Positions 37,319 through 62,449 of a stretch of DNA of 64,000 bases are shown here, one piece after another; the stretch's first letter is position 1; every line of letters starts with the position of its first letter. Source of the stretch: Diplocarpon mali (Eukaryota > Ascomycota > Leotiomycetes > Helotiales > Drepanopezizaceae); assembly GCA_024741835.1 (NCBI GenBank), contig JAENRP010000040.1, positions 10,878-74,877 on the forward strand. The letters are read 5' to 3'. The notes beneath the pieces were generated by a model. The model worked only from the letters and a program-made list of their open reading frames with translations. It had not been told where the DNA came from and searched no databases. A program made the translations under genes and the position numbers.

Positions 37319-37341
37319 ACTCGCGGGCCTGGCCCAGGAGT
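37319..37341. repeat. 23-bp palindrome, copy 1
   Basis: Arms ACTCGCGGGC / GCCCAGGAGT around CTG; 8 of 10 arm pairs match. Least AT-shifted copy, just inside the island boundary, abutting an A-rich tandem repeat. Confidence 0.85.
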
Positions 37342-37427
37342 AGAAAAAAAAATCACCCCTTAATGGAAGTATAAAAAAAAATCACTTTATAATAGAGGTA
37401 TAAAAAAAATCACCCCTTAATCGAGGT
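37339..37427. repeat. A-rich tandem repeat (about 28 bp, three units)
   Basis: Units contain a poly-A run followed by ATCACCCCTTAAT and GAGGTAT; the second unit is altered (ATCACTTTATAAT) by C-to-T changes. Confidence 0.85.
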
Positions 37428-37439
37428 GCAAAACCTTTA

Positions 37440-38418
37440 TATTTAACAATTTGATAAAGGCGGCATAGTTAAAGCTATTTAAGCTCTTAATAAGTCTATT
37501 AGCGGCGTTGTCTTTAGTATTAGTATACTAAAGATCTAAATGGCCTTTCTAAAGCTCTTGCCGAATATAATAGAACTTAATATCGATATACTTTATTCTC
37601 TAATGATATTCGGGGTTTTCAATAAGATAAAGGGCTCTTTAGTTGTTATAGATCATCTCGACTTTAGTAGTATCATTGCTAGTATAGCCTATTTCCTTAA
37701 GTACTTAGCGTATCTAAGAGGCCTCTTATGCGAATTTGCATATAGCGACGTATTCTACCTCTATAAATAAGAGAGCGATAATAGTTTATCGCTTAAAGGA
37801 GGCGGTGATTACGCTATTATTAAGGAAGAAGACGGCCTTAGAATAGGAGGCTCTACTTCTTCTATTACTTGCTTAATCAGAATCGCAGTAGCTATATAAT
37901 TTCTAAAGCTCTAGGTCAGTTGTTTTGCTTTCGAAGGTAGTATAATAGAATCGCATTCCTTATAAGTATTATAAAACTCGTTTTAAAGCTGCTATATATT
38001 ATAGCAAAGGATTAGTAAGGAATTTGCTAAAAATGGAGTAGTAGTATAGTATATCCTAATGCGTATAGTGCGTAAGGTACTATAAAGAACTATAGATCTC
38101 TTAGTATAGCTTTACTTCCTATAGAGTGGCGCGGCCTTTAAATTTAACTATATGAACTTTATAGCTATTAGCAAAAGGCGTTAGTACGCTCTTACAATTA
38201 GTTATATGAAAACGTTTAAGAACCTTATTAACGTAGGCGTCTTAATAAAGTGAGATTGTCCTATTTTATCGATTTTTAATTATATATACTTTTAAAAAGT
38301 AGTTAGCCAGTTCGCTACCTATAATCTTAAAGAGGTTATAAAGATCTCTCTTAAACTTATTATATATATTACCCTTCTTTGCTACTATAAGGAAGTCGTT
38401 AATATAGGTGATAATATT
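37440..38418 (-). mobile_element. Copia remnant: end of reverse transcriptase and RNase H
   Basis: Minus-strand translation, with stops, gives YINDFLIVAKK (the YVDD block), FKRDLYNLFKIIGSELANYF, DAYVNKVLKRFHITNCKSV and further blocks that match Ty1/Copia reverse transcriptase and the following linker and RNase H. The remnant breaks off abruptly at 38418, just upstream of the catalytic block in pol order, where the 1.75-kb repeat begins. Heavily RIP-mutated and non-functional. Confidence 0.85.
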
Positions 38419-38747
38419 GAGCTTAAGTGAGTCGGCGCAGTAGGTAAAGGAGGCTTCTAGAAGTCGATGGTCGATATATTAGTAAGAGTTAGGGAAGGAA
38501 GGTTACCCCTTTCTTCCCTATAGCTATATATATATTAATATCCTACTAATTAAGTAGTAGGGTTATATAATAATATATTAAAGTGATAGCTATATCGCCT
38601 ATTTTAATACCTTTACTTAGACTTTACTTTAATTGACTTATAGTTAGGAAAATAATAACTATCCTTTTGCGCTAATCTAACTCTTAAGTATCTCTTTAAA
38701 TTAAAAACAATTAATTAATAGCTACTTCTATTAAAATTACTAATCCT

Positions 38748-38770
38748 ACTTATAAGGCGGGACTAGGAGT
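38748..38770. repeat. 23-bp palindrome, copy 2
   Basis: Arms ACTTATAAGG / GACTAGGAGT around CGG; strongly eroded (5 of 10 pairs). First of three copies spaced 65 bp. Its counterpart in the duplicated segment is 41075. Confidence 0.7.
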
Positions 38771-38812
38771 TAAATTTCCTAAAAGCGTTCCTTTATAAAA
38801 CTATATAACTTG

Positions 38813-38835
38813 ACTCGCGGTCTAGGCCTAAGAGT
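38813..38835. repeat. 23-bp palindrome, copy 3
   Basis: Arms ACTCGCGGTC / GCCTAAGAGT around TAG; 6 of 10 pairs. Exactly 65 bp from copy 2. Confidence 0.8.
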
Positions 38836-38877
38836 TGATCTAAAGAAAAACTTTCCTTTATAAGATTATATAACCTA

Positions 38878-38900
38878 ATTCGTAGGGCGGGCCTAGGAGT
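38878..38900. repeat. 23-bp palindrome, copy 4
   Basis: Arms ATTCGTAGGG / GCCTAGGAGT around CGG; 7 of 10 pairs. Exactly 65 bp from copy 3. The minus strand reads T-P-R-P-A-L-R-I. Confidence 0.8.
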
Positions 38901-41074
38901 TGTCCTTAAGCCTGCTAAGCCCTTATTATCTTTTGCAACCTTAGTATATCTTTAAATGCTTTAAACTTTGCAACTATCTTTAATAGCTTTATAAATCCAT
39001 TTGCTACTATTCGATCGGTTGGGATATAGGTAATTAATAACTTATTCTTTATAATAAGGTCGCAGATAAAGTAGTAAGTAATATTAATATATTTCGATCG
39101 CTTATATAAGTATGGATTCTTTATAAGTGTAATTGCTCTTATATTATCTACTTAAAGATTAATATAATTCCTATCTTATTTAATATACTTAGCGAAATCT
39201 ATATCTTTTAAAACTTAAGCGATTTATAATCCTTACTTATAATTTGATAATATTAATATATATTTGGCCTTAGTGCTTGCAGTAGCTATTGATTTCTACT
39301 TCCTACTTCCTTATAATATAGGTCTGCTATATAGTACTACTACGCTTTTAAATATACTTTTTTAGCCTTTTATATTTGCCTAATTGGAATTAGTATATAC
39401 CTTAAGCTTTGCACTTATATATTTCATTAGTCTATATCTTACCTTTTATATAATTATCAATCGAAGGTACCTTTTAAGTCGCTTGACTATATTCTTATAT
39501 TAAATTATTAGATCCTTTAAGTTCTGATTAAGTTGCTTAATAATAAAGGCAATATCTAGTCTTATATATACTATAGTATATATAATTGCTTTAATATCTT
39601 ATTAGTACTTCTTTAGATCTCCTTTTTATTCATTTTTATTAATAGGCTTTAACTTATTATACTTTCCTTCGATTAGAGTACGCTTTAGCTTAAAGTTAGG
39701 AGTATAAGTAAAGAGTCCTATTTGGTCTAGGATCTTCTTAATATACTGCTCTTAATCTAACTAGAGTTCTTAAGTAAAGCGGTTCCTTATAATGCAGATA
39801 CTAAGGATCTTATGAATTCCCCTTAGATCCTTAGTATTAAAATGTTTCCGAATTGTTATAAAGAACTAATTTAATTAAGTAGTTGTTTTTATAACTATAG
39901 TAATATTGTTAATATATAATAGTAACTTAATTCTACGCTTAATATAAATAAATAGATAAGGGTTAGCTAGGCTTTAAACGAATCCTATTTCTATTAAAGT
40001 AAAGCTATATAAAAGGTTCTAATTATAGGCTGATTATTTAAGCCTATAGATACTGCAAAGTATATAAAAAGAGTGGCCAGCGCATATAGGAATACTATTA
40101 GGTCGGGATAGAAAAATCCGTTCCTTTATAATCGCTTTAGTAAATACATTTTTAATATTATACTATTTGCATTTAAGGTCCTTAGCGGCTACTATTACTA
40201 TAAATATATAAAAGGTATCTATGCGAACTATTGGCGCAAACGTATTAAAGTAGTCTTCTTTATACTATTAGGAGAAGCCCTTAGCTATAAGCCTTGCCTT
40301 ATAACGTTTTAGAGTCCTATTTGCATATATCTTAATTATAAAGACCTACTTTATTAATATTAAGTTTACATCTTTTAGCGTTAGTTCCTCTATCTATATG
40401 CTATTTGTAATAAGAGAGCTTATCTCCTTTTAAATTGTCTTATTCTATACTGCTTTATTCTTTAGATTATTAATAGCTTTATTATATATCTTTAGAAGAA
40501 AGATTTTCATTATCCCCTTAGCGGCTAGGAATGCATTATCTTTATCAAAGCTCTATTGAAGTTTGAGCTTATAAATCCTATATGCTATTATGGCTTAGAT
40601 ACGCTTAGACTCGCGTTTATTTAAAGTATCTTCTAGTTCTAGGTCTCTATTTCTCTTTAAAGATATAGGTTTAGCTATAGGTTCTATAGGCTTATTATTT
40701 AAGGAACCGCTTTTTAGTAGTAAAGGCTTATTATTACTTATTATTGAGCTTAAGTGAGTCGGCGCAGTAGGTAAAGGAGGCTTCTAAAGGTCGATAGTCG
40801 ATATATTAGTAAGAGTTAAGGAAGGAAGGTTACCCCTTTCTTCCTTATAGCTATATATATATTAATATCTTACTAATTAAGTAGTAGGGTTATATAATAA
40901 TATATTAGAGTGATAGCTATATTACCTATCTTAATACTCTTACTTAGACCTTACTCCGATTGACCTATAGTCAGGAAAATAACAACTATCCTTTTATACT
41001 AATCTAACTCTTAAGTATCTCTTTAAATTAAAAATAATCAATTAATAGCAACCTCTATTGAAATCACTAATCCT

Positions 41075-41097
41075 ACTCATAGGGCGGGATTAGGAGT
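41075..41097. repeat. 23-bp palindrome, copy 5 (duplicate of copy 2)
   Basis: Arms ACTCATAGGG / GATTAGGAGT around CGG; 6 of 10 pairs. Confidence 0.75.
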
Positions 41098-41138
41098 CAA
41101 ATTTCCAAAAGCGTTCCTTTATAAGACTATATGACTTG

Positions 41139-41161
41139 ACTCGCGGTCTAGGCCTAGGAGT
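41139..41161. repeat. 23-bp palindrome, copy 6 (duplicate of copy 3)
   Basis: Arms ACTCGCGGTC / GCCTAGGAGT around TAG; 6 of 10 pairs. Flanked by G and C, extending to GACT...AGTC. Confidence 0.82.
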
Positions 41162-41199
41162 CGATTTAAAAACTTTCCTTTATAAGACTATATGACCTA

Positions 41200-41222
41200 A
41201 CTCGCAGGGCAGGCTTAAGAGT
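41200..41222. repeat. 23-bp palindrome, copy 7 (duplicate of copy 4)
   Basis: Arms ACTCGCAGGG / GCTTAAGAGT around CAG; 6 of 10 pairs. Confidence 0.8.
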
Positions 41223-42489
41223 CGTCCTTAAGCCTATTAAGCCCTTACTATCTTCTATAACCCTAGTATATCTTTAAATGCTTTAAACTTTGCAACTATC
41301 TTTAATAGCTTTATAAATCCATTTGCTACTATTCGATCAGTTAGGATATAAGTAATTAATAACTTATTCTTTATAATAAGGTCGTAGATAAAGTAGTAGG
41401 TAATATTAATATATTTTAATCGCTTATGCAAATGTGGATTCTTTATAAGTGCAATCGCCCTTATATTATCTGCTTAAAGATTAATATAGTTCCTATCTTA
41501 TTTAATATACTTAATAAAACTTATATCTTTTAAAACTTAGGCGATCTATAGTCCTTATTTGCAATTTGACGATATTAATATATATTCGGCCTTAGTACTT
41601 GCTATAGCTACTGATTTCTACTTCCTATTTCCTTATAATATAGGTCTGCTATATAGTACTGCTACGCTTTTAGATATACTTTTCCAGCCTTTCATATTTG
41701 CCTAATCGGAATCGGTATATACCTTAAGCTTTACGCTTATATATTTTATTAGTTTATATCTTACCTTTTATATGATTATTAATTAAAGGTACCTTTTAAG
41801 TCGCTTAACTATATTTTTATATCGAATTATCGGATCCTTTAGGTTTTGATTAAGTTGCTTAGTAATAAAGGCAATATCTAGTCTTATATATACTATAGTA
41901 TATATAATTGCTTTAATATCCTATTAGTACTTCTTTAGATCTCCTCTCTACTTATTTTTATTAGTAGGCTCTAACTTATTATACTTTCCTTCGATTGGAA
42001 TACGCTTTAGCTTAAAGTTAAGAGTATAAGTAGAGAGTCCTATTCGGTCTAGGATCTTTTTAATATACTGCTCTTAGTTTAATTAGAGTTCTTAAGTAGA
42101 ATAGTTCCTTATAACGCGGATGCTAAGGATCTTATGAATTCCCCTTAGATCCTTAGTATTAAAACGTTTCTAAATCGTTATAAAGAACTAATCTAATTAA
42201 GTAGTTGTTTTTACAGCTATAGTAATATCGTTAATATATAATAGCAACTTAATTCTACGCTTAGTATAGGTAAATAGATAAGGGTTAGCTAGGCTTTAAA
42301 TGAATCCTATTTCTACTAGAATAGAGCTATATAAGAGGTTCTAATTATAAGCTGATTGTTTAAGCCTATAAATACTATAGAGTATATAGAAAGAGTGGCT
42401 AGCGTATATAGGAATACTATTAGGTTGGGAGAGAAAAATCCGTTCCTTTATAGTCGCTTTAGTAAATGTATTTTTAATATTATACTATT

Positions 42490-42898: not shown

Positions 42899-42959
42899 NN
42901 NNNNNNNNNNNNNNNNNNNNNNNNNNNNNNNNNNNNNNNNNNNNNNNNNNNNNNNNNNN
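42899..42959. other. Assembly gap (61 N)
   Basis: Run of N. Sequence on the two sides may not be truly adjacent. Confidence 0.99.
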
Positions 42960-42977: not shown

Positions 42978-43000
42978 ACCTATAGGCCGGGCCTAGGAGT
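42978..43000. repeat. 23-bp palindrome, copy 8
   Basis: Arms ACCTATAGGC / GCCTAGGAGT around CGG; 7 of 10 pairs. In E1. Confidence 0.85.
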
Positions 43001-43402
43001 TAGAAAACGAAACTAGCAAAATAAACAAATAAGCTATAGAGTTGCAAAAACAATTAAAAATAGTACTAACTTAGATATCAATTTTCCTTAGTTCTCTTTA
43101 AGGGATAGGGAGAACTATTATTAGATAATACTCTCTTTATAAAGCGCCTACTTCTTCTTAATAGTTTACTATTAGTGTTAAAAGAGTCCGGTCTTAATAT
43201 TGCAAAAGCTTTAGTGTTTTATGAAGATGCTAGTATAGTTTGATAGCTTCTGCTAATAGGGAGGGAGACTTATATTATAGCATTATTATTATTATCCTCT
43301 TTATTATTATTATTATCCTTTAAAGAGTCTTCTACTATAGAGGGGGATAAGGCAGGCAATTTAATAGATAATACTTCCTTTTCTTTGCCTTTGGTTAATA
43401 TA

Positions 43403-43425
43403 AGTTGCAGGCCGGGCCTAGGAGT
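43403..43425. repeat. 23-bp palindrome, copy 9
   Basis: Arms AGTTGCAGGC / GCCTAGGAGT around CGG; 6 of 10 pairs. On the E1 coding strand it reads T-P-R-P-G-L-Q-L, inside a frame that stays open for more than 30 codons afterwards (LTKGKEKEVLSIKLPALS). Confidence 0.85.
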
Positions 43426-44233
43426 TGTATTAGAGGGTTTAGCATAAGGTTTCTTAATACTATACTTTTCGAGAAGGATCGTCTTATCAATTATATTATT
43501 AGCCTTAATATTATTATTAATACCTTTTGTCTTAGTCTAAGACTTATCCCTATACAGTTATAGCTCTAACTATTAAATCAGCTTCTAAGTATAGGTAAAA
43601 TTATTAAAAAGTTCCTACTTATACTTCTTTAGATATATTATTAACTAAGTTATATCTTTAGAAAATAACTCCTTTACTATTATTACTATTATTACTATTA
43701 ATAGATTATTCTATAGCTGTTTCCTTATAAATGCCTCTAACAGTAGGCCTCCTTTTATTATATTAAGCGTTGCACAAAATTTGGCTAACGATTCTTTAGC
43801 AATACTCTATCTTATAGTGCTAGGTCTCTTTATACTAATAGAATCGATAAGAAAATCTTTTAAATCTATACTATTCTCTAATGAGTTATTACTAATAACT
43901 TCTATATAGTTATTGCTAATAGTAAGAAAGCCACCTTTTCCTAGTTCTTTAGCAGATTCTATATTAACAAACGTGCCTTATCTAGTAAATATAGAGAATA
44001 GAGTTATCTTATTAGAGATATACTCCTTTAGAAGTATCTTCTCTTTAGTATTTAATTCTTTCTATTATACTGCATTTTAAGCTAGATTTAGTAAGATCTA
44101 CTAAGCATTCTTAAGGCGTTAGGGTATAAGATTTGATAATTTATAGGATTTTTCTTAAATAGTGAATTCTCCAGTCGATTATTTAGCTGCTAAAATTATA
44201 TAATAGTTAATAGTTCTATTATCAGATGGATTA

Positions 44234-44256
44234 ACCTATAAGCCAGGCCTAGGAGT
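44234..44256. repeat. 23-bp palindrome, copy 10
   Basis: Arms ACCTATAAGC / GCCTAGGAGT around CAG; 6 of 10 pairs. Reads T-P-R-P-G-L-stop-V-N in E1, at roughly the same place as copy 14 in E2. Confidence 0.85.
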
Positions 44257-45463
44257 CAATCTTATAAATCTTATATTAGTATTAATCTTAATAGCAATAA
44301 CTCTTAAGTAGTAATCAATTCTAATAAACTATATAGGCTTAGGATATATCATTAATTTATATAAAGACTTATATTAAGTTAGTAGAGCACTTAAGTATAA
44401 TCTATAATATATCCTTAATATCTATTATATTAAGCTATAAGTTATATTATAAAGGTAGGTAGAAGGGGGGTTTGGCTTCTTATCTAAGGTCTAGAAGTAG
44501 TATTAATACATTTCTAATTCTTCTTATACTAATATTAAAAATGAATTCTTTTTACAATTACTATAACTATATATGCGTATAGCGCTTAAAAAGGCGCAGC
44601 TAAATAACTTAGGCATATTTAAAAAGCCTTTACTACAGAATGATATAAAGTTATTAATAGTTAGTATAGCATTATACTAGGTAGGGGTCTATACGATATT
44701 ATAGAATAATTTAAGGGCTTTAAGTGCTACTCTAAACTTAGAGAAGCCTAATGATATATCCTTTTTAACTTAGCTTGCTATTCTATTGCCGATAGCTATA
44801 ATTATATAATTTCCTAGATGTAATAAAAATAAGGTTAAGTTAAAAGCAGTATAAAATTTATAGATATTAGATAATATATCTTTATTAGTAAGGCCTATTA
44901 TTGCCAATCTATAGTACTGCGCATATTAGCGTTTATAAAAGGCGCAGAACTTTTCAAAATTAAAGTCCCTAAATATTCCTATTATAAACTTTGCAAGTCT
45001 TATCTTCATTTCTAATATTACTACTATCTTAAAACTGTCGCTATACTATAGTATCATCTTTATATTAAAAGGGACCTAATAATATTCTATAAAGATAATA
45101 TTTATATTAACTTCGGATTTCTCCTTAAGAATATAGAAGTCACCTTTTAATTTCTTATACTTAATAAAGAACTGCATAATATTATCTATAGAAAATTCGT
45201 CTTATAGCAGTTTTATAATCTACTTAATAGCTCTTATCGTCCCTTCCTATACTAATAAGACTTCTCCCCGACCTTCTTTTCTTAAATACTTTATTATTAA
45301 CTTATAGAATTTAAGAATAAATTTTTATAAGTTATTAGGAAAAGATTGTATAATATCGGCGGTATCCTTTTTAGTATTATTAAAAATTTCTAATATATTA
45401 GTAATAGTGCCTATTTCTTTATTAGACAATTCATCTTCTGAGTCTATAATATTATATATATTA

Positions 45464-45486
45464 ACCTATAGGCCGGGCCTATAAGT
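45464..45486. repeat. 23-bp palindrome, copy 11
   Basis: Arms ACCTATAGGC / GCCTATAAGT around CGG; 9 of 10 pairs. Reads T-Y-R-P-G-L-stop-V-N, in frame with the following E1 segment DSEDELSNKEIG. Confidence 0.9.
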
Positions 45487-45649
45487 CATTTTCTTTACTA
45501 CTAGTGTTTAGAGTATTTGAGGTATATCTAGGGATAGTGACTTAAATTCGTCTGAGTCAGAGGAATAGTAGTCAAGTAAGTTAGCTGCTTGAGTTCCTAG
45601 TATTATAGGCACCTCTAGCTTAAGGACATTCTCCTTATATACTAATTCC

Positions 45650-45672
45650 ACTTATAGGCTAGGCCTATAAGT
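45650..45672. repeat. 23-bp palindrome, copy 12 (perfect arms)
   Basis: Arms ACTTATAGGC / GCCTATAAGT around TAG; 10 of 10 pairs. Reads L-T-Y-R-P-S-L-stop-V, in frame with the following E1 segment (KENVLKLEVPIILGTQAAN). Confidence 0.92.
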
Positions 45673-47299
45673 CAAATTCTCTTTATTAGTTATTCCTATC
45701 AAAGGTAGTAGCATTTTTAAAGTAATAGGAATAACAAACTCCTATCTCTCTAACTTATTATTAAAGTAATTTATAGTATACTTAGCGAGATAAGTCATCT
45801 TTTCTTTTATAATAAGTAGACTATATTATAACTATTAGAGGCTAAGTATATCTAGAACAGTTTAATCAGAAAGTGCAAAATTATTATATTATAAGAGTTC
45901 ATCTTTTATAGTCTAAATAGTAGAGTATATAATAGTGCTTAAGAACCTAATAAATTTTCTACCTCTAATGCTATTTCCTTACAGCTTTTTTATACCTTTT
46001 TAGATAGTGAAATGATTTAATACCTATATGGCCTTTGCTATAGGTTAGTATATTTTAAAGATTTTACCAAGCCCTTATAAGGCGTTATTAGCAGTAATAT
46101 CAGTTATAAAGTAGGTCTAGAAAAGTGTACTATAAGTGCTACCTATAAACTGTAACAATCTTTTTATATACTTATTCTTCTTATTTCGATTTTTCCAAAA
46201 CAAATCCATAGAATTAGTATACCCTTAATATTCCTATAGAAATTTTTCATAATTAATCCCTTTTATCTTAAGCTTATTCTTAAGAAAATTATTAAAGCTT
46301 AAAAATCCTTCTTTTATAGTAGAAATTCTATAGTTTAATACTTCTATAGATAAGTTTAAAAATACTTGCTATTCTATTTCACCTAACGTTCTATAGGTAC
46401 TTACTATATCTTCTAATGATCTTAGAGCTTTTCTATCCTATAAAAAGTTACCCTCCAATATTAGTTTATTATTAGTAGTATTTAAGGGTTTGCTACCTAA
46501 AGCTACAACTGATATATTCTTCTTAAGTATGGCTCTCTTGCTTGAGCTTAGTAGTACTATAATGAATTATTTAATAGGAGGGAGTAGTTCTAAATGAAGA
46601 GATAATTATTTAAGAAAGATTAACAATATAGGAGGCTTATACTAGAAAAGATTGATAACGAAAGATAATAGTAGTAGTGCTAGTATTATAGGTCTAGTAG
46701 GGTTATAGAAAAAGTAAAAAAAGTAAAATCGTAGTGCGGGGAGAGGCTTATTTATAGAGTTTGAAATCGCATTAGTACATATAGGAAAAGTAGGCATAAT
46801 GAGCTTAGAAGTAAGAACAAAAGTGGGGTATAATATATACAAGGACCTATAATTGGTAAATGATAATTATTAAAGGTAAGGAAGACATTTCAAAGGTAAG
46901 TATTAGAAAGTTATATATAAAGGAAATAATTAAAGAATAAATTATATAAAGAGTAAAGTAAATAAAGAATATATATAAAATAGAATAATAGGTTGAGAAT
47001 AAAGAGGTGCAGGTATATAGAAAGTAGATAATCCTTAAAAATTTCAACTTCTAATTTGCAATCTCTCTAAATGGTTTTTAAGGAGGGGGTAGTAGACTCG
47101 ATTCTCTAGGCTTAAGTCGATTCAATTATTAATTCTATTATCACTTTAGAGTCTTCTTTTCTTATATTGGTTCTTATTTCTTGGCGATTTCTTAACTTTA
47201 GGGACCTCTCTTAAAGGATCTTCTATTAATACCCTTAGATTTAGTAACTAAGGTTTATCCGAATCATCTTATAGGCTTAAGCTAGCCGAGTCCAACCTT

Positions 47300-47322
47300 A
47301 CTCGCAGGCTAGGCTTGCGAGT
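47300..47322. repeat. 23-bp palindrome, copy 13 (best-preserved GC form)
   Basis: Arms ACTCGCAGGC / GCTTGCGAGT around TAG; 9 of 10 pairs. The E2 coding strand reads L-T-R-K-P-S-L-R-V-R-L without a stop. Confidence 0.92.
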
Positions 47323-48184
47323 CAGTCTTAGCGTTTCTAAGCTTAAGGGTAAAAATAGGGGATTGGTTCCTAAATTAGGATTTAATATTATACTAAAGTC
47401 TTAGTTCGTCTCTTTTCCGAATTTTCTTATAATAATGCCTTTATCAATTAGTATATTAGGCTCTTAAATAGCATTTACTTTATTGCGCTATCCTTAAGAC
47501 TTAAGTCTATAAAGAAGCGACTTAGTATTTATAATATTCGTCTAAGCCTTAATAAGGGTATTAAAGAGCTTTTGATTATATTCTATAAGGTGGATTTTCA
47601 ATTTGTCTTTATTAAGAAGAAACAACTCCTATACTTCGATTATAATCGATAGATCTATCTAAAAGCGTCAACTAATAATGGCTTTAAAGAGGCTACTATA
47701 ATTCTTAAGATAAAAAGCTGCCTTAAAAGGTGCAGTGGTTTTACGTATATTAATCTATTAAGGTACTAGAGGTTGCTTTAAAGCAAAGACTGAAAAGACA
47801 AAATCGGAGATTTAAGTCTCATTTTCTAAGGTATTCTTATTAAGGACAGCTATATAGTTATTGCAAAAGGCTATAAAACTACTAGTCTTATAAGAATTGT
47901 TTAAAAGCATTTTAAGAAGGTATTCCTATTTTATTATTATTATAATTAGATTGCTATTATTAGTAATAGGTCGTAAGATCTCCTTTCGCTTTAACTTTGC
48001 AATCATTTAAGCTAGTTGAGATTTTGAACCGAGTGCTTAAGAAGTCTATCGACTTGTCTTCTTTGCAAATAGAGTAAGTTTTATAGTCAATTGAGAGCCG
48101 ACCTACCTATTAAGGCTTTTAGAAGCTGGCCCTTATCTAATTAGTAGGATCTAATAATCTAAGACTTACTTTCTAATAAAATTG

Positions 48185-48207
48185 ACTTATAGGCCAGGAC
48201 TGCAAGT
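48185..48207. repeat. 23-bp palindrome, copy 14
   Basis: Arms ACTTATAGGC / GACTGCAAGT around CAG; 7 of 10 pairs. Reads T-C-S-P-G-L-stop-V-N in E2, roughly colinear with copy 10 in E1. Confidence 0.85.
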
Positions 48208-49570: not shown

Positions 49571-49593
49571 ACTCTTAGTCTAGGACCGTAAGT
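49571..49593. repeat. 23-bp palindrome, copy 15
   Basis: Arms ACTCTTAGTC / GACCGTAAGT around TAG; 6 of 10 pairs. Reads D-L-T-Y-G-P-R-L-R-V-R in a frame that continues into the E2 segment homologous to E1 (LNNLKELVLNFF). Confidence 0.82.
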
Positions 49594-50705: not shown

Positions 50706-50749
50706 CTAATTAGTAGTAGTACCTTTACTATAGATAGTAAGGTTATTAA

Positions 50750-53700
50750 ATTGAAGAATTCTTTCTTGATTTTAAGGAGTACTTAATTATATTTCTAGCT
50801 TACCTTAAATATTAACTTAAATGTATAAAGTAATATCAGTTACTATTAGAGGGGAAAAGGCAAAAGGTACGCGAATCTAGCTAGAGTTATTACTTTAAAG
50901 GTAGATACTATCCTCTTCTACCTGCGTTCTATTATATATTATAATTAGGGCAAAACCGGAGTGCAATTAGTATCCTAACTATAATTAGATAATAGTATAA
51001 TGATATATAAAATACGACTATATCGGACTTCTTTCGGACCCTATTAGGGCGTAGAGCAATATTCGGACAATATTAGGAAATGATTAAGAGGAGACTATTA
51101 ATACTACTTAATCTAGGGTAACCCTAGATATTAAGGGACCTTAAAAGGGATATAAGACCTTAAGAGGATTAACCTAGCAAAGAGGCCTTTAGATTAAAAG
51201 ATTAATATATAAAGAACTTTCGAAAGATATTATAAGATAGTAAAAGGAGAGGGCTATACTTTACTAAGGACTTTTAAAAGGAATTCTAAGATTAGATAGT
51301 TAGCGACTTTAAATTGCTAGATAAGGACATTTAATAATACTTAAGAGACGACCTTTGGTACTATAGAGTATACGTTTAGCGTAGGAAGGGCGTTTCGATC
51401 GGCTAGGCACTTTTCGATATAGTATACTAAGAAGGAAATGAGTAGCTAGAAGACTAGCTAAAGTCATAGACCTAAGAAGTACTAAACTCAGTTATAGCAT
51501 AATCTCTAAGATATAGAATAAAGTTTACTTTAGAATTTGCTAAATCTATGCGAATAAGCGAGCTACCTGCTTAGAGGGTTACTATAGTTAAATAGGAGAT
51601 ACTATATTAAGACTTGCTTCGGCAAGGATACCTTAGATATAATAATAATACTTTATAAGATAACCTATATAAAGCAGATACTTTAAGATAAACAACCGAA
51701 TGGTATAACCTTAAAAGAATATCTTATCAACCCCAATTAGGATGGACCTTAGTCTTATAATACCTAGAGATCCCGAATCCGATACTAATGCCGCCGATCC
51801 AATTGAGAGACGGATTATTACCACCCTTTACTATAAGGAGAGGTTTAAGAGCGCTTCTAGACCTTAATTAGAGCGACGCTCAACTATCTTAGTATATTAT
51901 AGAACCTTTGACTTCAGATTAGGCCAAAACCCTTATAAATCTAAGTAAGATATATATTAAGGAGACTTAGTACTTAGGTAGGAAAGATCACCTTAATAAG
52001 AAGCTTTATATATTTGCCGATTTGTATTAAAGAGCCTTAGTAGACTAAAGTATATAGCATAGAGCCTTTCCATTTATACTATAAGACTTGGCCTTAATAT
52101 ACTACTATTAGTACCTATAAAATAAGAACTTTAAGTTTGCTAAGTTAGTAAAGGCCATTCGGGCCAATTATAAGACTGAAGAGAGAAGTAGCAGATTCTT
52201 AAAGAGGTGGTTTCGGCTAACATTTGACCTATTCTGATAAAAAGACTATTAAAGAGGGAAACCGATCCTAACCTAACTTAAGAACTATGCTAAGGAGCTA
52301 TAAAACCTGCAATTAGGCCTATATGCTAGTATAAGGAACGATCGATCAATTAGAGATAGGCTTATATAAGGTATTTCTAAGAATCGGCTATTCCAAATGG
52401 CACTTTTTAAGCTACTAGCGACGTTCCTAGCTCTATTAGATAGCTTATAGACTTACGTAAGAGTAGTTGCCTAGGATAGACTATCCAAACCCTAGTACCC
52501 CAGTTCGGCTACTAATAGACCTTAATATTATTTGGCCAAAGAGCAAAGGCAATCTATAGTACACTTTTCGAATAGAAAGATGAAGTTTGCCTAAGGTAAT
52601 AAGAGAGGAATAACCTTTTAACTAAAATCAGGCTATATAAGGTACATTATATATTAGAAAAAGGACTGCTATAGTAGTAAGCACTTAAAAGAAGAAAGAG
52701 CCGCTTAGAAGTCTTATTATATAGCAAGCCGATAAGCTAAAGGGTATAAGCTAATAGATAAAATATATAAGGCATACCTCTTATAAAAAGATAAAGGAGC
52801 ATATTTAAAGGGCAATAGGACCGATAAGGATAAGTAGGAAACGTCTTTAGAAGAGGAGGACTAAGCAATTAGCGACCTTAAGGATAGTAATATCAACTTT
52901 ACTATAGTATTCCTAGCTTCTAATTAGGAATATAACTTAAGAACTGTGCTTAACCAGCTTGAAAAGTAGAAGGCTGAATACCTTTTAATAATAAGGGTTA
53001 ATAAACTGATACAAACAGACCCTAAGGTGTTTATAATATAGTAGACGGATCAATTCTTCTAAGGATTCTTAATTGATATAGGCGCTTTAAATAAAAATGT
53101 AAAAGGAATCAACCAATTTAAAGCCTTATAAAATATATAGGACGCAGTTCTAGCTCTACTCGGCGCTAAAAAGTATAAAATTACCTTTAGGGTAGGTTTA
53201 TAAAATGCAATCGGCAAGATAACTGTTTGAATACCGGCAGGCCTTATAGAGTTCTTAATTATAAAGGCAGATATACCGTTTTTAATCTGCTTATAATAAT
53301 TCGATAAAATGGAAGCTAAATACGACAATCTGCGCAATTTGCTTATTATCGGTAAGGAGAAATACTTAATTGTTAGAAAACATAGGCACCTATGGCTCTT
53401 ACTTAATATAATAAAGCAACTTCTAATAACTTTAAAAGGTACAATTAATATATACTACTTAATAGAAATAGAGATCCGAAGGCTATATAAAAGATTTGAA
53501 TATCCTTTAGTAAAATGCCTTAAATACCTCTTGAACTAGGCCGGTTATAATATCGACTCTAGTATTATAGCGAAAGTAAGGGAAATATACCGATATTATC
53601 AACTCTACGCTAACGCTCCTTATAGATTCCGATTTAAGCTATAAGATAATATCGACTTTAATTATACTATATATATCGATATTGCTTAGTTTAATAGAAG

Positions 53701-56400
53701 GAACGCCCTTTATATAGTTAATAAAGCGACGGGATTTAGAGCCGCAAGGTTCTTATAAAAGGGAATAGAAGTATATTCGGCCGATGTAGTATTTCGAGCC
53801 TTTAAATTAGCTTAGCTAAATACATATATTAGACCTTTTGATTTTATAGTATACGACTATAGTACTAACTTCAACTCGGCAAAGTTCAAAAGCTCTTTAA
53901 GATCTATAGGAATAACCTTTAAACTGGTTCCTATAAAGGCGCACTACTCTATCGGTAAGGTCGAATGGTATCATCGCCCTTTAAGATATACCTTTAAGAT
54001 AATAATAGCTAAATACCCCTAATTAAGCGATAATAAGAGGCTGTAAATGGCTGTTAAAGTAGTTAATGATATAGCAGGGCCTAATAGAATAATTCCTACC
54101 CTACTCGTTTTTAAGGCATATCTAAGGCTAATTGAACTAGATCTACCAAATCTGTTAGTAGAATAGAGGGCAGCAACAATTAAGAAGGCTATAAAGGAAG
54201 TGAAGAAGATCCACGCTACTCATAAGGTTAACAACGCTTTAAGTATAAGAAATGGCCCTAGAACTACTTATATCTACGATTTAAGGCTAAAAGACCTAGT
54301 ATTAGTATATTAAGAGAAGGGAGGATAGATAGGCCCATTTGAGTTCCTAGGCTTAAAGAACGAAACCTATATAGTTAATATCAGCAGCAGAATAAGGCAC
54401 TTTAGATCAATAAGCATACGTCTATTTAAAATCGATAATAAAGAAAACTGCCTAAAGGAAACTAAAGGAATTAAACCTAAGGATCGAACGACTACTAAAA
54501 GGGAGTAAAACGCAATTGATATTAATAAAGAAGTAGAGCCCTCTCGCTTAGCTAAGCCGCAACTTAATAGCTATAAGCAATCGCTAAGAGTAGAGGTTCC
54601 CTTTATTAAGCCTATTTCCAGCCTTCCTATAATTAATAATAATTATAATACTAAGATATAGATATCCTTTAGAGCAGATAATAAGCTATATATAGCTAAA
54701 TCGGAAGTATTCCTAATAGAGAAGGAGAATAAGGATTAAGAACTATCGCAGAAGCTATAGGTAGAAGGCAAGATTATTACTCTTAAGCGCCCTTTCTAGC
54801 AATCTCGCTTAAAGGAGTACTAAGGGCTAATGAATAAGGGGGTATTTATACTAATGAATAAAAATGACCCTACTATAAAAGGCAAAAGGATCTTTAAATC
54901 GAGAATGATTGATAAGATAAAGGGAAAGGAGATAGATCACCTATTTAAGAAATCACACCTAGTTGTATAGGCCTAGAATAATACTAGTAAGAAGGAGGAA
55001 GGCATAATCACTTAATCCCTAACTATCTAATAAGTAAGCCAACGCCTTTTAATATCACTTTTAGCATCAATTTAAGAATACTTTAAAGAATAGGGTAAAA
55101 AGGGCATTCTTAGCCTACGGGATATTATATAAGCGTATACCTAAGCAACTTTAAAGCTATTATATAATATATTTATATTTCCCTTATAAGATATTGCTAA
55201 GCTATTCCCTATAGGTACGGTCTTTAAAGTGGTACTGCCGCTCTATAGTATTCCCGAATTAGGAAATTACTAGTTTAGCACCTACTATAAGCACTATTGT
55301 AGTAATCTTAGTATAGCTAACTTAACTTATAACTCCTATCTATTATTAACCTTAAGCACTTCTCCCTTTTTTAGTATAGTAGGAATACAAACGGACAACA
55401 CTTTAATACTTAGAGAAGTAGACTTCTTGAAAAAGAAGGAGGATAAGATCAAAAGGGTAGGATTCCTTATAAAGCTAATACAATACCTATTAAGCACCGA
55501 ATTACTAGCTTTCAATAGGTGTATTATTTCCTAAGAAGGGGATATAATATATATGCGACAAAAGGGCTAAGGCTAAAGGCTGGAACTAGTCGATACTTCT
55601 TAAGAGGGCTATAAGCAATAATACTTAAAGTAGAGAGCAAAAGGAGCTTATTTAACTATAATCTACTAGCTAGAAGCTTCCTTCGATTTATCAGCTATAG
55701 CCTAATACTAGGATCTGATAGTTTAAGATGCAGAGAATTTAAATAAGCGACTTAAGTGGATTCGAAATAACCCTAAAAGAGGCCTGACCTACCTTGCTAT
55801 CAATTTGCAAAACGCTAAACTATTTACATTTATCGATAGATCTTTTGCTAATAATAAGGATTTAAGCTTACAAATCAACTATATTATCGTACTAGCTACT
55901 AAAGAGGAAGGAGAATCGCAGTTTACTTTAAAAGGCAATATTCTATACTATAGCTTAACGGAGTGTAAAAGAGTAATAAGAGCTATATTAGCCTTCAAAC
56001 TGTATACTATAGTAGCAGGTATTAATATGCTAGTTTCTATAGCTATAACGATCGATATGGTAATAGCTAAGCTAAGTCTACCCTGCCTCCTTACTATTAT
56101 ATATATAGATTCCCTCTCCTTATATAAGTATATTGTTAAATTAGGTACTATAAAGGAGAAGCAATTAATAATCGATATAATAGCTATTCGATAATCGTAT
56201 GAGAATAGGGAGCTTATAGAGATACGTTGGATCGATAGTGCTAGCAACCCTACCAATGCTATAATAAAAGCCAATCTAAATCAGGCCCTTTAGCAACTGG
56301 TAGATACTAATTTGATAACTGTTAGGAAGGAGGGATAGGTATAAAGGCCTATTAGGGCATAACTAGACTTGAAAAGGTCTTAGATTAATAATATCTGATA
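50750..56400 (+). pseudogene. Copia Gag-Pol pseudogene
   Basis: Recognisable plus-strand blocks despite many stops. Protease FLIDIGALNKNVKGINQF (family DTGA, with T changed to I). GAG-pre-integrase IEIRRLYKRFEYPLVKCL. Integrase FIVYDYSTNFNSAKFKSSL, HYSIGKVEWYHRPLR and LQMAVKVVNDIAGPN. Reverse transcriptase VVLPLYSIPELGNY and the catalytic block VGIQTDNTLIL. RNase H TFIDRSFANNKDLSLQINYI, CKRVIRAILAFKLYTIVAG and TIIYIDSLSLYKYIVKLGT. This is the fungal Copia branch with Q-T-D-D at the RT active site. Non-functional through RIP. Confidence 0.92.
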
Positions 56401-58131
56401 TTTTTAATTATAAGCTATTAGTAATTTTTTTATTTATTTTTTATTTTACTATAAGATATATTCCTACACTTACTATTACTACCTTCTTTTTATCTTTTCT
56501 TACTTACCTACATATACTTGCATTTTTTTATCACTTAAGTAGTATTAAAGAAGGAGGTTATAGCAAAGTAGCAATTATTATATTATTAAAGATAATAATC
56601 TACTAATGATTCTACCCTTAATAAGCACCTATCCTAAGCACTAGGATTTCTAAAGCGTAGATCCTTAAACCCTTAAGGCTTAAAAGCCTTATTACTTAAA
56701 GCAGCGGCTAAATTGGCCCGCTCCTCTTAAGCTTATACCTAAGCAAAAGCGGCTGCGATCTCCTTTGGATTCGGCTTATTTAAATTATTAAGATCCAGAT
56801 CCCTACCCTTTAGAGAGCCCTTAAAAGGCACCTATCTGCCCTTGCCTTTTTAGCAGCAGATATTATTAAAGGGAGCCTAAGAGCGGCCCCTAGCTAAGCT
56901 AAATAGCCCCTTTATATGCTAAAGGAAGCCGAGCACCTTAGCGCTTTAAGTTTTAAAATACCTAAGGGTAGCATTACCGCCCTAGATAGCGCGCAATAGA
57001 TCTTGCGAATAGTTAGTTATTAATATTAAATAAATTCAAAGGTACGTATAGCTTGCTAGATGTTCGCAAAGTCAATACTGCGGTAAAGAGCATAAGCTTC
57101 GTTTAGCTAAGCTAGCTAAAGGGCATCCTAAGTCTTTAGGACTATAGAGATTTATATTTAAGTCTCCTTAGATAGGATTTAGGCCGCCTCTTAGATCGCT
57201 TTAATATTGCTATTAACTTAAGCATCCTAAAGGATGATATACTTATCTTAAGCTTAGATAGGTATTTAAAATAGACATCTATTAGAGGTTATTAGAGTAA
57301 GAGGATATTAAAGGGCACTTACTAGGATATACTTAGCCTACTATGTAATATAGTAGTTATACTTCTTAGAAGTAAGAGTATTAAAGGCGCATATATGGCT
57401 AGTATTATTCTTACTAGCCTCCTTTCTTAATATTATATATGTATAACGTACGTATATCACCCGAAAGGCCTTAGGCAGATCTTTTAAGTTGCATTCGAGT
57501 ACTATCTAAGTTAGCGATATATATATCAAAGGGGGTCGGCCAACTATTAAAGCACTTACTAATAATAATAATATTAATAATAAGATAATATAGGATAAGA
57601 TCTACTAAAGGGTTAATCAACTTAAAAGTAAAAAGGGGAATCGACCTACTTATAAGAAGTAGGAATTAAAGTTGAAAGATCAAGGGAAGAGGGAAGCTCG
57701 ATATATATGCCTTCTTAAAGGCCCCTCTTTTCCCTTCCACAAATCATTATAATTCATAGCCATAGTGGATTACAATTCTAAATAACTCTTTAATAAAGAG
57801 TCTCAAACCTACTAGAACGCAACCAGACTATAATCGCACTACTACAAGGCTTAAATAAAGACCTTAGATTGCTTCTATCACTTAGACACCTTTCCTTTCC
57901 CTCTTTACTATTTTATCTTTACTATTTGCCTTTATCTTTACTATTCTACTTTATATATATACTATCCTTATTACCTATTATATCTGCCTTTACTATTAAG
58001 CTATTTGTCTTTACTATTCTATTCTTTATTACCATTTGATTATTTACTACCGATCTGCCTCCTTTATATACCTATTTTACGTACTTCCTTATATAAGTTG
58101 AAAAGGTCTTTTTAAAAGAAAGTACTGCTAG

Positions 58132-58430
58132 TATTGATACGCAGATTCTTATATAAAAGGCAAGCCATCCTCATTCCTAGGGTCATCCTATACAGCTATA
58201 CCATATGCGATATAAGGGGTTTCGTATGTATTTCGGACGGCTGTTCAGCCAGAGGACCTCAGAAGGATATCTATATACAGCTAGGAGGGAATATAAAAGG
58301 GAGGTCATTCAAAGGTATAAAGGTACTATCTCAGTCATATAGAGATAGATAGACATTATAATAGATTCTTTTTAATAATAAGTACTTAACTATATTCATA
58401 TGAATATCGATTACTAATATAGAACCTATA
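58132..58430 (+). repeat. Copia 3' LTR (299 bp)
   Basis: Starts TATTGATACGCAG and ends AGAACCTATA, followed by ATAGT. A 72-codon open frame inside it is an artefact of the LTR sequence. Confidence 0.96.
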
Positions 58431-58862
58431 ATAGTAGATAAAACCATTTGTGAGTTCTTTAGAGGCATATTGCTTGTGAAAGATAGGTAGTATAAATAAG
58501 AGAGTTTAATAGGGTATAAGAATTAAAAGGGCATATAAGTTGCAATAGGTTTGCTATATATATATTAAGGAAATTGGACTTTTTATTTATTATTTAAGGA
58601 AAGTAATAGGAATATTATAATTAAAGGCTAATATTAAGAATATAAAATAAGTTAAAGCAGGCAAGAATTTAAAGTGATCTTAAAAGATCTATATCTTAAA
58701 TAATAAAGGAGGCGACTTTGCTAAAAATGTAAAAATAAGGATTAAAGGAAGGTAAGACAATTAATAAGCTAGGAAATCGTTCGGTATTCCTACTTACGTT
58801 CTTCGGATATTTTAAGAATAATAACTTAAGGTTGCGATTAGTTAGGTATTTTAATATTCTTT
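58431..58862 (-). mobile_element. E2 N-terminal part and its upstream leader
   Basis: Continuation of E2 across the Copia insertion. Its upstream sequence reads (minus strand) short hydrophobic stretches such as LTYFIFLILAFNYNIPITF, similar in style to the leader upstream of E1 (RFYFFYFFYNPTRPIILAL), so both ORF blocks probably share a common 5' region, perhaps an LTR. Confidence 0.5.
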
Positions 58863-58885
58863 ATTCGTAGGACCGGCTTATAGGT
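58863..58885. repeat. 23-bp palindrome, copy 16
   Basis: Arms ATTCGTAGGA / GCTTATAGGT around CCG; eroded (4 of 10 pairs) but with the same length and flank (GTCAAATT). Minus strand reads L-T-Y-K-P-V-L-R-I. Confidence 0.65.
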
Positions 58886-60297
58886 CAAATTGGAAAAATC
58901 TTGGTCTTTATCTAAAGGTTTAAAATTGCTTATATCGCCGTCGGTTCTTGCAAAGGATTCGGAGGTTATATCAATTTCTAATTTGTCTTTTAAAGGGAAT
59001 AAGGTCTAATTGCATTAATAAAAGCGCTTTAGTCGGTTAGCTGCGAAGGTTCCCTTGATATCGACTTTATTAAGTTCCTAAAGAGAATAGTATCCCTTTT
59101 CTTTTTACTTAGATTTAACCTTAAATAGACCAAGCTATCGATAATCAAGTTTAGTATTTGCTAATATATTAATACTTCTTATAATATCATAGACTAGGAT
59201 AAGATTATCTTTTTAAATAGAATGCGTTTTAAGTACTTTAGAAGCAGCCTACGCTTCCTTAGCTTTTTCCTAATATCGTTTCTTTTGCAAAATGATTTCC
59301 TTTATATCTATATCTTAAAGCTTAAGTTATTAGTATCTTATTACAAGTAAATCGGAACGGTTCCGAATTTGACTATAGTCGAATAATCTCTAAATAGGCT
59401 ATTAGGATTTAAGAGGGAGCTATGCCTCTTTACTATAGATAAGGAAAAATAGTATAACTCCAGTCGGTTTATAGATTATCGTTTAATAAGCAAAGAGTAT
59501 TTTATAAAAGCGTTTTATCTAATCCTTAAATCCTTTATAAGTAACTTTAGATAGACTATTAAGAATATTATAGTATCCTTATTCTACTACTCTATTAGCT
59601 TTTAAGTTATATGCTAAGATTTGAACCTATTTAATGCCATATTTTCGCAAGAAAGCTTCAACTACTCCTTTGTTTTTAAGGCCTCTATTAATAGTTAATC
59701 TATTAAAAAGTCTATAGCAATAGACTACGTCTTCTTAAAGGAACTTTGCAATAGATTTAAAGTTAGTAGATCTTAAAGGTTATCCTTTAGGCCATCCTAA
59801 TAGGTCTTCCTTTGCTAAAGTAAAATATATTATCCTATTCTTAATAGTTAGTACTTATATAATATTAAGGCTGACTTTATAGAAAAGGCCTAATAGCTAG
59901 GTTAAGAATAAGGGATTTTCCTTATAATTAGGTTTTCGTTTCTAATAAGGGATGCAACTCTTTACAAAAGCTTTATAGTCCTTAAAAGAGCCTTTCTAAA
60001 AGAATTTTCTTAAGAGTTAGTAGTAAGTGGACTTAGCTCCTTAGTAGCTAGTTTCCTTATAAATATCCTAGATAGCTTTAGCCCTTAGTTTTTCATTATT
60101 TAAGCAGAGTTATATAAGGAATAAGTTATCGCTCCTTTTAAACAATCGTCTTCCTTATATTAAATAAATCAAAGCTTTAGCTTTGAATTTCTGAAAATCC
60201 TTAAGAGCAACTGTTTTTAATTATTTAAGTATAATTAAAAATTTCGCAATTTCTTTAGAATCACTTAAGTAGTTAAGTGATAAAATTCTCTTATTTG

Positions 60298-60320
60298 ACT
60301 TATAGGCTAGGCTTAAGAGT
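60298..60320. repeat. 23-bp palindrome, copy 17
   Basis: Arms ACTTATAGGC / GCTTAAGAGT around TAG; 7 of 10 pairs. In the linker between RNase H and integrase of the Gypsy pol. In the pol frame it reads R-L-L-S-L-A-Y-K-S-N, a different phase from the E1/E2 copies. Confidence 0.85.
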
Positions 60321-62264
60321 CGAGTCCCTTTAAGGCGATATATCGATAGATAACCAACTTCGTTCTCTATCTACTTATTAATATCTGTTTTATCTTCTTT
60401 AATTAAATTAGAGGGGTAGGGGCAAGTTCTTCTTAAAAGGTTGTCTATAGCAGTGTTTTTCATTCTTGGAATGTGTTTGACTTTAAAGTCTATTAATCTT
60501 ATTTAAGTAATCCATTTTATTAGCAAGGCTTTAAGTAGGTCGCTTGCAGCTCTATTTAATTGTTCTACTAGTACTTTAATATTAGTTTTAAGGATAAAGT
60601 AAGTGCTATAGAGGTCGCTTCTCATCTTTTTCATTGCTTTTAAGGCTCTTTTGCATTCCTATTTAATAGTATTATACTTTATTTTTACTAGATTCTAAAG
60701 ACTACTTTTAAAGTGAGCTAGATGTCTTTTCTATTAGCTATTAGCTTATTAAAGGATAGTACCCTATTTGATTAAGCTTATATCAACTATTAGTATAATT
60801 GGCTTAGCATTAGCTTTATAATCTATTTTAATTAGATATAGCGCTTTAAGTAATGCTTGCTTCAGTTGTTTCATAGCTTCTATTTGGGGTTCTTCCTACT
60901 GAAACTCAGCCCCTTTCTGAAATAAGGTATAAATAGGCGCTGCCTTTTTAGTAAAATCCTTAATCTAAATGCGATAGTATACTATAACGCTAATAAACGC
61001 GCGAGCTTCTGCTATATTATTATACCTCTTCTATTTATTGATTTTGAGTACTTTAGCCCTTTAAGGACTTCGGCTATTGGAATTAGTAATGAAACTAATA
61101 ATTTCTATTAATAGAAGATAGTATTATAACTTTAGACCAACTGTTGCTCTTATCCTTTCGAATTGTATAAGTACTTAGTCCAGGTTCTAAATGTATTTTA
61201 TTATAAATTATTATATATTAAGAAGAACTTCTTTATAATTATAGAATGATCTTGATCCTTTTACTCTTATATCGTTTATATAAGGGAGCGTAATATTAGG
61301 TATATAATCTACTAATATCTTATAAATTACTTAGATAAATTAAACGATCGAATTTATAGCCCCTTAAGGTAATCTTATTATCTGAAGTAGCTTAAAAGGG
61401 GTTTGAATTGCTATTATATCTTTCGATTTAATATTAAGAATAAATTGGTTGTATTTAAAGAAGAAGTTAATAAGAGAGCTATAGGTTAATCCTACGAATT
61501 CATTTAAGAACTCATCTATATTTAAAAGAATATTAGTATCCTTAATAGTTACTCGGTTCATCTCTACTACTACTATTATTAGTCTATAAGTTCCCTTCTC
61601 TTTCTTAGCAACTAGGAACCATTTGTTCTTATAAGGGCTATTATAAAACTTAAGAACTTCTTACTTCAGCCTATCCTTTAATATTTCAATTACCTTTTCT
61701 TAAAGAGCTTTAAGGACTCCGAATGTTTTCTCTTACTAGGCTTTATAGGGTATTATCTTAATCTTAATATAAGATATAACCTCTTTTCAAATCTGGCCAA
61801 GTTCCGTCTAATTAAAAGCCAAAGCGTCTTTTTAATTTATTAAGGTTTTATAAAGTAGTTTGCATTCTTATTCTATTAAGTCATTTCTAATTTTTAGTAT
61901 ATTAAAATATTCTTTTATTAGCTAATATCCGATAGGTTTATTAAAAAATCTACCTATAATAAACTTATCGAGTTTGCTACCTAGCTTTAAAAGTCAAAGC
62001 TTCTTATCTTATTTAAACTAATCGTCTAGTCCTCTAGGCTTTAAGCTATTAGAGATTCCCTAATCTATTAGTCGTACTTTATCAGCCTTACTTTTATATA
62101 TAGTTCGAATATTAGCTAGTACTATACTTCTCTACTTCTTTCCTTTTTTATCAAATCTTATAAAACGGTCCGAATTTTCCTTTTTAAAAATAAATAAAAG
62201 ATTTTCTAAGTTGTTAATTTAAAGTATATAGATAGAAATATTATTAGTAATTTTATTGTTTTTC

Positions 62265-62287
62265 ACTTATAGGTCCGGCCTATAAGT
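62265..62287. repeat. 23-bp palindrome, copy 18
   Basis: Arms ACTTATAGGT / GCCTATAAGT around CCG; 9 of 10 pairs. Between protease and reverse transcriptase of the Gypsy pol. Confidence 0.9.
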
Positions 62288-62426
62288 GGTTTTTAGGTTT
62301 TTTAAAATAATTAGTAAATTATTAAAATTTATAAAATGAACTCTCTTCTCTACCTTATTTTTCTTTTTTCTTAATTATTAAGCTAATAAAACTCCAATTA
62401 TATTAATTTTCAAAATTCTAGATTTA

Positions 62427-62449
62427 ACTCTTAGTCTAAGACTATAAGT
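62427..62449. repeat. 23-bp palindrome, copy 19
   Basis: Arms ACTCTTAGTC / GACTATAAGT around TAA; 8 of 10 pairs. Same inter-domain region as copy 18, 162 bp away; flank AGTTAAATCA shared with copy 15. Confidence 0.85.

Follow-up and report, generated by a model that had tools for sequence, protein, structure and literature searches.

The window, by which we mean the whole stretch of 64,000 nucleotides analysed (Diplocarpon mali, assembly GCA_024741835.1, contig JAENRP010000040.1, positions 10,878 to 74,877 of the forward strand), carries in its right half several degraded retrotransposons in which a short GC-rich palindrome, hereafter the dyad, occurs repeatedly. All 19 palindromes counted in an earlier note on this DNA are present, each of 23 bases (Table 1), with 4 to 10 of the 10 arm positions paired. 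Scanning the window with up to four mismatches rendered 18 matches, every one belonging to this set, and none in the reversed window; five mismatches rendered 23 (the 19th site, at 58863, and four more) vs two in the reversed window. The weak site at 58863 is backed by counterparts at other loci of the genome (L002:66, L026:4421 and L027:7966). The stretch 36001-64000 is strongly affected by repeat-induced point mutation (RIP), with a TpA/ApT ratio of 1.41 vs 0.76 in positions 1-36000, and a (CpA+TpG)/(ApC+GpT) ratio of 0.62 vs 1.23.

Two of the hosts, E1 and E2, had been taken for families distinct from each other and from the Gypsy pol. This is ruled out by the copies L026 and L029, which run unbroken through both, from the site at 49571 to the pol, at a place where the window has an 8-kb retrotransposon in between; E1, E2 and the pol are therefore one interrupted element, and the 19 sites sit in three host elements. 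The claim that three of the sites are secondary copies is confirmed by the 1.75-kb direct repeats of a second element, each of which bears three dyads. The main host would be a Ty3/Gypsy long terminal repeat (LTR) retrotransposon, as judged from the presence of Gypsy-type reverse transcriptase, RNase H and integrase. Its pol is 46% identical to P0001 over 99% of the query region; this protein carries PF00078, PF17919, PF17917 and PF17921, and the integrase region could be aligned as well. Among 635 first-look candidates in the genome, 38 were scored, the best of those being 54% identical to P0001. An LTR-like end repeat is seen at one end of the element in the window, whose right end lies beyond the window, and the same repeat is found at the opposite end in other copies; from this repeat and its counterparts in L006 and L020, a length of about 16 kb can be suggested. 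Downstream of pol, on the minus strand, two tandem paralogous open reading frames (ORFs) of about 1,100 codons each, g1 and g2, occupy positions 43290-50400. For g1, database searches gave a single relative, a Diplocarpon coronariae protein of 1105 amino acids, P0173, with 68% identity over a 720-amino-acid query (71%, 751/1056, over the ORF of the L026 copy), for which no Pfam and no PDB match was obtained.

The peptides TRGPGPGV, TRGPGPRV and TREPGPRV, present at three homologous places of P0173, led us to propose the intact form ACTC[G/C]CGGGCC-N-GGCCCG[C/G]GAGT. The dyad had been described as two 10-bp arms around a 3-nt loop. The length of 23 bases stands; the loop does not, since the intact form reads CNG there, so that the intact dyad has 11-base arms around one base. 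Likewise, the two arm types that had been noticed are seen in the window, but they appear to be RIP-decayed forms of ACTCGCGGGC and ACTCCCGGGC. In agreement with this, 37 Copia copies differ from one another by C-to-T and G-to-A changes. The intact dyad tested has a single CA/TG step, which helps to explain its survival as GC-rich words under RIP.

The whole-assembly search proposed in the earlier note covered 49,369,952 bases in 676 contigs, with the reversed pattern as control, and its outcome was far above that control. A RIP-tolerant 23-base pattern, in which C may be T and G may be A except at the fixed ends, rendered 2,685 sites vs none. With up to three mismatches, the ACTCGCAGGC form rendered 1,157 sites vs two and the intact form 863 vs none; with up to two mismatches, the ACTCCTAGGC form rendered 456 vs none. 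Full matches to the intact form number 22, and in all except one of them the variable position is mismatched, as C.C or G.G. Of the loci inspected, only L005-L024 are a systematic sample (20 stretches, parts of them masked), the others including deliberate picks of palindrome-bearing places, one set of which comprises 20 of the 22 fully matching sites. Masked stretches, reading N, are found in L010, L013, L015 and L051, as well as beside position 42958 of the window. In the systematic sample, the RIP-tolerant scan with two mismatches gave 33 sites vs 11 in controls for the 7 AT-rich stretches (67.7 kb), and one site vs two in controls for the other 13, of GC-richer DNA (119.8 kb), so that in gene-rich sample DNA the dyad is not above control. 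A stricter scan gave 24 sites, in 5 of the 20 stretches, and none in the controls, after an additional four-mismatch match in L024 had been dropped as chance. In the left half of the window, the RIP-tolerant scan found one match at two mismatches (control, none) and none at one mismatch. The 8-kb retrotransposon that interrupts the Gypsy-type element is equally RIP-affected and serves as a natural dyad-free control: the same scan found nothing there at one mismatch and, at two, a single match (55057) that is unconvincing as a dyad.

The geometry of the dyad is sharply defined. The genome holds one 22-base and no 24-base version, and opposite half-sites lying within 60 bases of each other in sampled DNA form 41 pairs at spacing 3 and two at spacing 48, the latter stemming from tandem units; 38 of the 79 half-sites are lone ones, and the reversed control has 19 half-sites. 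The earlier note had stressed that length is conserved under RIP, which is true but expected, because RIP makes substitutions only; what is telling is that versions of 22 and 24 bases are almost entirely lacking. Flanks were analysed in 32 registered site groups (143 instances). Conservation reaches RAWTYN on both sides and drops beyond position -6; position -1 is unconstrained, and a pyrimidine occupies -2 in all 64 half-sites. In the genome, a purine is found at -2 in six of 5,370 half-sites, most of the sites being copies of one another. The unit therefore extends to YN-ACTC[G/C]CGGGCC-N-GGCCCG[C/G]GAGT-NR, of at least 27 bases. The flanking symmetry GACT...AGTC, pointed out in the earlier note, reflects this sequence preference: a hairpin extended through the flanks was rejected, as between offsets -1 and -12 pairing does not exceed that of shuffles (z at most 1.2). 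In 20 of the 32 groups the arms are non-complementary at the G/C-variable position, in better agreement with two half-sites than with a paired stem, and at the sequence level the behaviour of the dyad is that of a nucleotide signal made of two half-sites.

Table 1. Dyads and host elements in the right part of the window (positions are those of the window)
Feature	Position	Strand	Remarks
Dyad, Copia-type piece	37319..37341		Copia label is our own reading of the flank
Element with direct LTR-like repeats of about 1.75 kb	38412..42489		repeats 38412-40167 / 40739-42489, 90% identical; short internal part
Dyad 1/3, left long repeat	38748..38770		repeat 38412-40167
Dyad 2/3, left long repeat	38813..38835		
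Dyad 3/3, left long repeat	38878..38900		
Dyad 1/3, right long repeat	41075..41097		repeat 40739-42489; secondary copy
Dyad 2/3, right long repeat	41139..41161		secondary copy
Dyad 3/3, right long repeat	41200..41222		secondary copy
LTR-like end repeat of Gypsy-type element	42483..42740		matches L006:2979-3234
Dyad near 3' end of Gypsy-type element	42978..43000		adjoins masked bases
ORF g2	43290..46600	-	RIP-degraded paralogue of g1; ends approximate
Dyad in C-terminal tail of g2	43403..43425		
Dyad in g2	44234..44256		aligns with 48185 of g1
Dyad in g2	45464..45486		no g1 counterpart
Dyad in g2	45650..45672		aligns with 49571 of g1
ORF g1	47124..50400	-	RIP-degraded; ends approximate
Dyad in g1	47300..47322		third peptide of P0173 (TREPGPRV); flanks match 166 genome places
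Dyad in g1	48185..48207		second peptide of P0173 (TRGPGPRV)
Dyad in g1	49571..49593		first peptide of P0173 (TRGPGPGV)
LTR retrotransposon inserted in Gypsy-type element	50409..58433		end repeats of 300 bases with 90% identity
Gypsy-type pol (reverse transcriptase, RNase H, integrase)	58840..62860	-	RIP-degraded; ends approximate; nearest protein P0001
Dyad after pol integrase region	58863..58885		weak here, clearer in L002, L026, L027
Dyad in RNase H-integrase linker	60298..60320		other frame (RLASLACES in L026)
Dyad in pol, upstream of reverse transcriptase	62265..62287		
Dyad in pol, upstream of reverse transcriptase	62427..62449		

The dyad occurs in several unrelated retrotransposon contexts, Gypsy-type, Copia-type and others; grouping 152 instances by their masked flanks rendered 21 clusters. 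In 16 loci that are related to the 37319 site and have an intact dyad (L070, L071, L073-L076, L078-L085, L087 and L089), it lies in the 3' untranslated region, past the end of the Copia RNase H. The 3' region of the same loci has short T-run-rich repeats upstream of the dyad, with T-runs whose length varies among copies. At a Copia gag-protease boundary, a label that, like that of the 37319 flank, is our own reading of the sequence, there are either one unit (L077) or two (L058 and L072). One family has units spaced at 45 bases, numbering one (L033), two (L027, L028, L031 and L032) or three (L039 and L043), and another has them at 45-54 bases, numbering two (L047) or three (L036, L037 and L041). 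Related copies with one, two or three units indicate that the dyad has been multiplied by local tandem duplication, and its sites are concentrated in certain transposons. Dyads are also borne by an insert of 2.9 kb within one of the Gypsy-type copies (L017 4200-7135), which has two sites in common with the Gypsy-type leader and is apparently a short, non-autonomous relative of the Gypsy-type element.

Many sites lie within coding sequence, and their third codon positions are informative. Translated in frame 0, the intact dyad gives T-[R/P]-G-P-G-P-[R/G]-V, all codons of which are fourfold degenerate. In 17 coding site groups of our own selection, some of them tandem or paralogous, dyad position 2 is T in 16 and position 14 is C in 15, position 5 is always a pyrimidine, positions 17 and 20 are always purines, and position 8 is G in 12 and T in five, while the third positions just outside the dyad (-1 and +23) are even (9, 9, 9, 7). 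The spelling is clearly uniform across site families. Moreover, the g1 sites 49571 and 48185 align with the g2 sites 45650 and 44234, respectively, and these two shared dyads have 20 and 21 purine/pyrimidine matches of 23, the mean for other windows being 16.

We favour, with a probability of about 0.4, the reading that the dyad is a cis-acting signal, predicted to be bound by a protein, that is common to several LTR retrotransposons. Its carriers are the Gypsy-type element of an estimated 16 kb or so, its apparent short relative, Copia-type elements and others of one Diplocarpon-type fungus, in which the dyad occupies many fixed positions, both outside genes and within linkers of ORFs. A putative dimeric, sequence-specific protein, encoded by the host or by an element, would bind the dyad as DNA; this predicted binding would help the elements, for instance through activation or de-repression, and elements having the dyad in common would use the same putative binder. 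Its spread could be accounted for by local tandem duplication together with presumed exchange between elements. The copies in the window lie in RIP-degraded relics and have probably ceased to be under selection. A wider proposal, which we regard as tentative, is that of a community signal, i.e. that the 27-base dyad is a predicted shared protein-binding site through which unrelated Gypsy- and Copia-type elements would use the same factor, possibly as a sequence-specific system for anti-silencing or activation in a fungus with RIP, and which would be written into synonymous positions of coding sequence. If this were true, unrelated retrotransposons of one genome would converge on, or trade, the same signal inside protein-coding sequence, and its thousands of copies would allow a direct test of the ways in which host- or element-coded control is acquired by selfish elements in a repeat-mutating genome.

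Several observations weigh against the reading as a protein-bound signal. The 2,685 genome sites largely represent copies of a few dozen, and the 32 site groups are not all independent, several being tandem or paralogous and L017:6703, L051, L055 and L057 being one site. Arm pairing is above shuffles at one nearly invariant position (0.97 vs 0.94, z 5.7), with a slight excess at the next (0.91 vs 0.86, z 2.0). The base at the centre, which is free in intact copies, has a skewed distribution among the 17 coding groups (T 12, C 3, A 2). As regards the paralogous ORFs, the g2 site at 45464 has no partner in g1 and the C-terminal sites of the two are unaligned, so that sites come and go; the identity between g1 and g2 as aligned (27%, 263/981) is depressed by RIP in g2, two copies of which are mutually only 69% identical. 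Besides, the best other g1/g2 windows reach 22 purine/pyrimidine matches of 23, and at third positions alone the shared dyads match at 12 of 16, vs 0.60 elsewhere, which is a weak difference. Uniform spelling could also reflect copying or gene conversion instead of selection, and the first acquisition of the dyad by unrelated families is left without explanation.

It can also be the case, although we consider it rather unlikely, that the dyad is itself a mobile element of miniature size, with 23-27 bases of selfish palindrome inserted many times in the past and tolerated in coding DNA because the frame stays open (27 bases being nine codons). An identical unit in unrelated contexts, its presence in more than one reading frame as well as at non-coding positions, and a uniform spelling among families that fits copying would all be expected of such an element; the sharp-edged flank preference RAWTYN resembles a target preference, the site at 45464 is found in g2 only, and the Gypsy homologues P0001-P0005 lack the peptide. 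However, none of the 359 dyad-crossing alignments among copies is empty (5 of the 86 queries had no covering alignment), in a test that covered one genome and that copies with diverged flanks would escape. The Copia flank pairs are filled in 37 of 37 cases. For a Gypsy site, a flank-pair search permitting 0-26 bases between the flanks found 166 places, and of the 100 listed, all of which are considered filled, 99 have 52 bases, the filled length, and one has 51; the 48 with readable letters all bear the dyad. Copies of the Copia gag-protease boundary with one unit were found at two places, both of one-unit length, as judged by length alone, and neither empty. Nor does any offset stand out as a flanking direct repeat or target duplication in the 32 groups, in which RIP blurs the test; a best per-base match of 0.53 at k=4 was rejected, as it lies at an offset overlapping the dyad. 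The alignment of copies with and without the palindrome, suggested earlier as a way to reveal insertion boundaries, has thus yielded neither empty sites nor duplications. A mobile element is also at odds with the gene-rich sample, where dyads do not exceed the control, and with the dyads at two matching positions of the paralogous ORFs. A clean insertion into the RNase H-integrase linker was sought by comparison with P0001-P0005 and dropped, these linkers being too divergent to reveal one. With no empty site and no target duplication, recent mobility of the dyad is unsupported; it may once have been mobile and later have been put to use. Of the two options offered in the earlier note, a mobile hairpin or a motif recruited repeatedly, it is the second that agrees better with the unrelated retrotransposon contexts, coding and non-coding, in which the dyad is found.

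A role in RNA, as a hairpin or through the pairing of two genomic RNAs for dimerization or packaging, common to parasites of the same particle, seems improbable. Folding of the symmetric intact form gives -19 kcal/mol (z -5.2), and all recognisable hosts are retrotransposon-like, including the short element of L017 with its two sites in common with the Gypsy-type leader; dimerization of Ty3 uses a short 5' palindrome (PMC11381356). On the other hand, the commonest intact form, with the C.C or G.G mismatch of 21 of the 22 full matches, folds at only -12.7 kcal/mol (z -2.3), and compensatory arm changes could not be detected, there being no pairing excess at the truly variable positions, where RIP limits the test. 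The sites are also distributed along the whole element, beyond its 5' end, while the Ty3 palindromes tested in the same source are of six bases (PMC11381356).

Still less probable is that selection in linkers acts on the peptide T-[R/P]-G-P-G-P-[R/G]-V, which might serve for instance as a protease site, the palindrome being a by-product. Frame 0 is the stop-poorest at 11 of the 19 clusters, about six being expected if the six frames were equal, the 11 including the non-coding site at 37319 and one near tie. All six intervals between sites from 43403 to 49571 are multiples of 3, and the ORF of P0173 reads in frame through three dyads as three such peptides. However, the pol site at 60298 is read in another frame, and the dyads of the Copia 3' untranslated region and of the long repeats are non-coding; the peptide alone is therefore not the reason for the dyad. 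Its third positions are, in addition, uniform although the peptide would leave them free. Finally, an artefact of RIP or composition, in which spared GC-rich words mimic a family, would suit the strongly RIP-affected stretch and the single CA/TG step of the intact dyad, but chance and composition are refuted by the reversed-pattern controls (0-2 vs 456-2,685) and by the fixed spacing, so that we discard it.

Searches of other collections rendered no counterpart of the dyad: positions 36000-64000 gave no Rfam match at gathering scores, viral contigs gave none with one exact degenerate pattern covering RIP-changed forms only, literature searches aimed at an element of this kind, or at the retrotransposons of the fungus, brought up no description among the papers listed, and those with the intact DNA or peptide strings returned matches that were unrelated, as judged by title only. 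The term 'palindrom' is absent from the main text of the D. coronariae genome paper, in which two assemblies of 51.5 and 50.7 Mb with about 34% repeats are described (PMC11527701). The GC-rich half of the window contains, according to Pfam, an HMG-CoA reductase-like ORF and a palA/BRO1-type gene (18797-20185 and 24683-26688); the nearest named proteins of the host palA product are those of Drepanopeziza brunnea (90%) and Rhynchosporium (88%), which, taken with P0173, points to Diplocarpon or a close relative of it.

Among known systems, the mitochondrial GC clusters of fungi are GC-rich palindromes scattered in AT-rich DNA. They differ from the dyad in that the latter is found in nuclear DNA, where AT-richness goes with RIP, and has retrotransposons as hosts. 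The RNA dimerization palindromes of Ty1 are cis-acting signals of an LTR retrotransposon. A palindrome as a cis-acting signal is also a point of likeness with Ty3, for which the candidates are of six bases near the 5' end, in contrast to the 23-27 bases, element-wide distribution and frequent mismatch of the dyad (PMC11381356). The palindromic elements of Rickettsia resemble the dyad in being palindromic repeats in frame inside many coding sequences; they are bacterial, of about 150 bp, and reside in ordinary genes (PMC10969869), whereas the dyad is a nuclear fungal sequence of 23-27 bases in retrotransposons, without empty sites. The closest working analogy is that of the VANDAL transposons of Arabidopsis, which gather the motif of the VANC anti-silencing protein through tandem duplication (PMC5735166). 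The VANC21 motif has nine bases, lies mostly in non-coding DNA and is seldom found outside one VANDAL family. Common to both systems is a short, sequence-specific motif, present many times per transposon, multiplied in tandem and varying in copy number, while here it takes the form of a 27-base dyad that is found in several retrotransposon contexts and often within coding sequence (PMC5735166).

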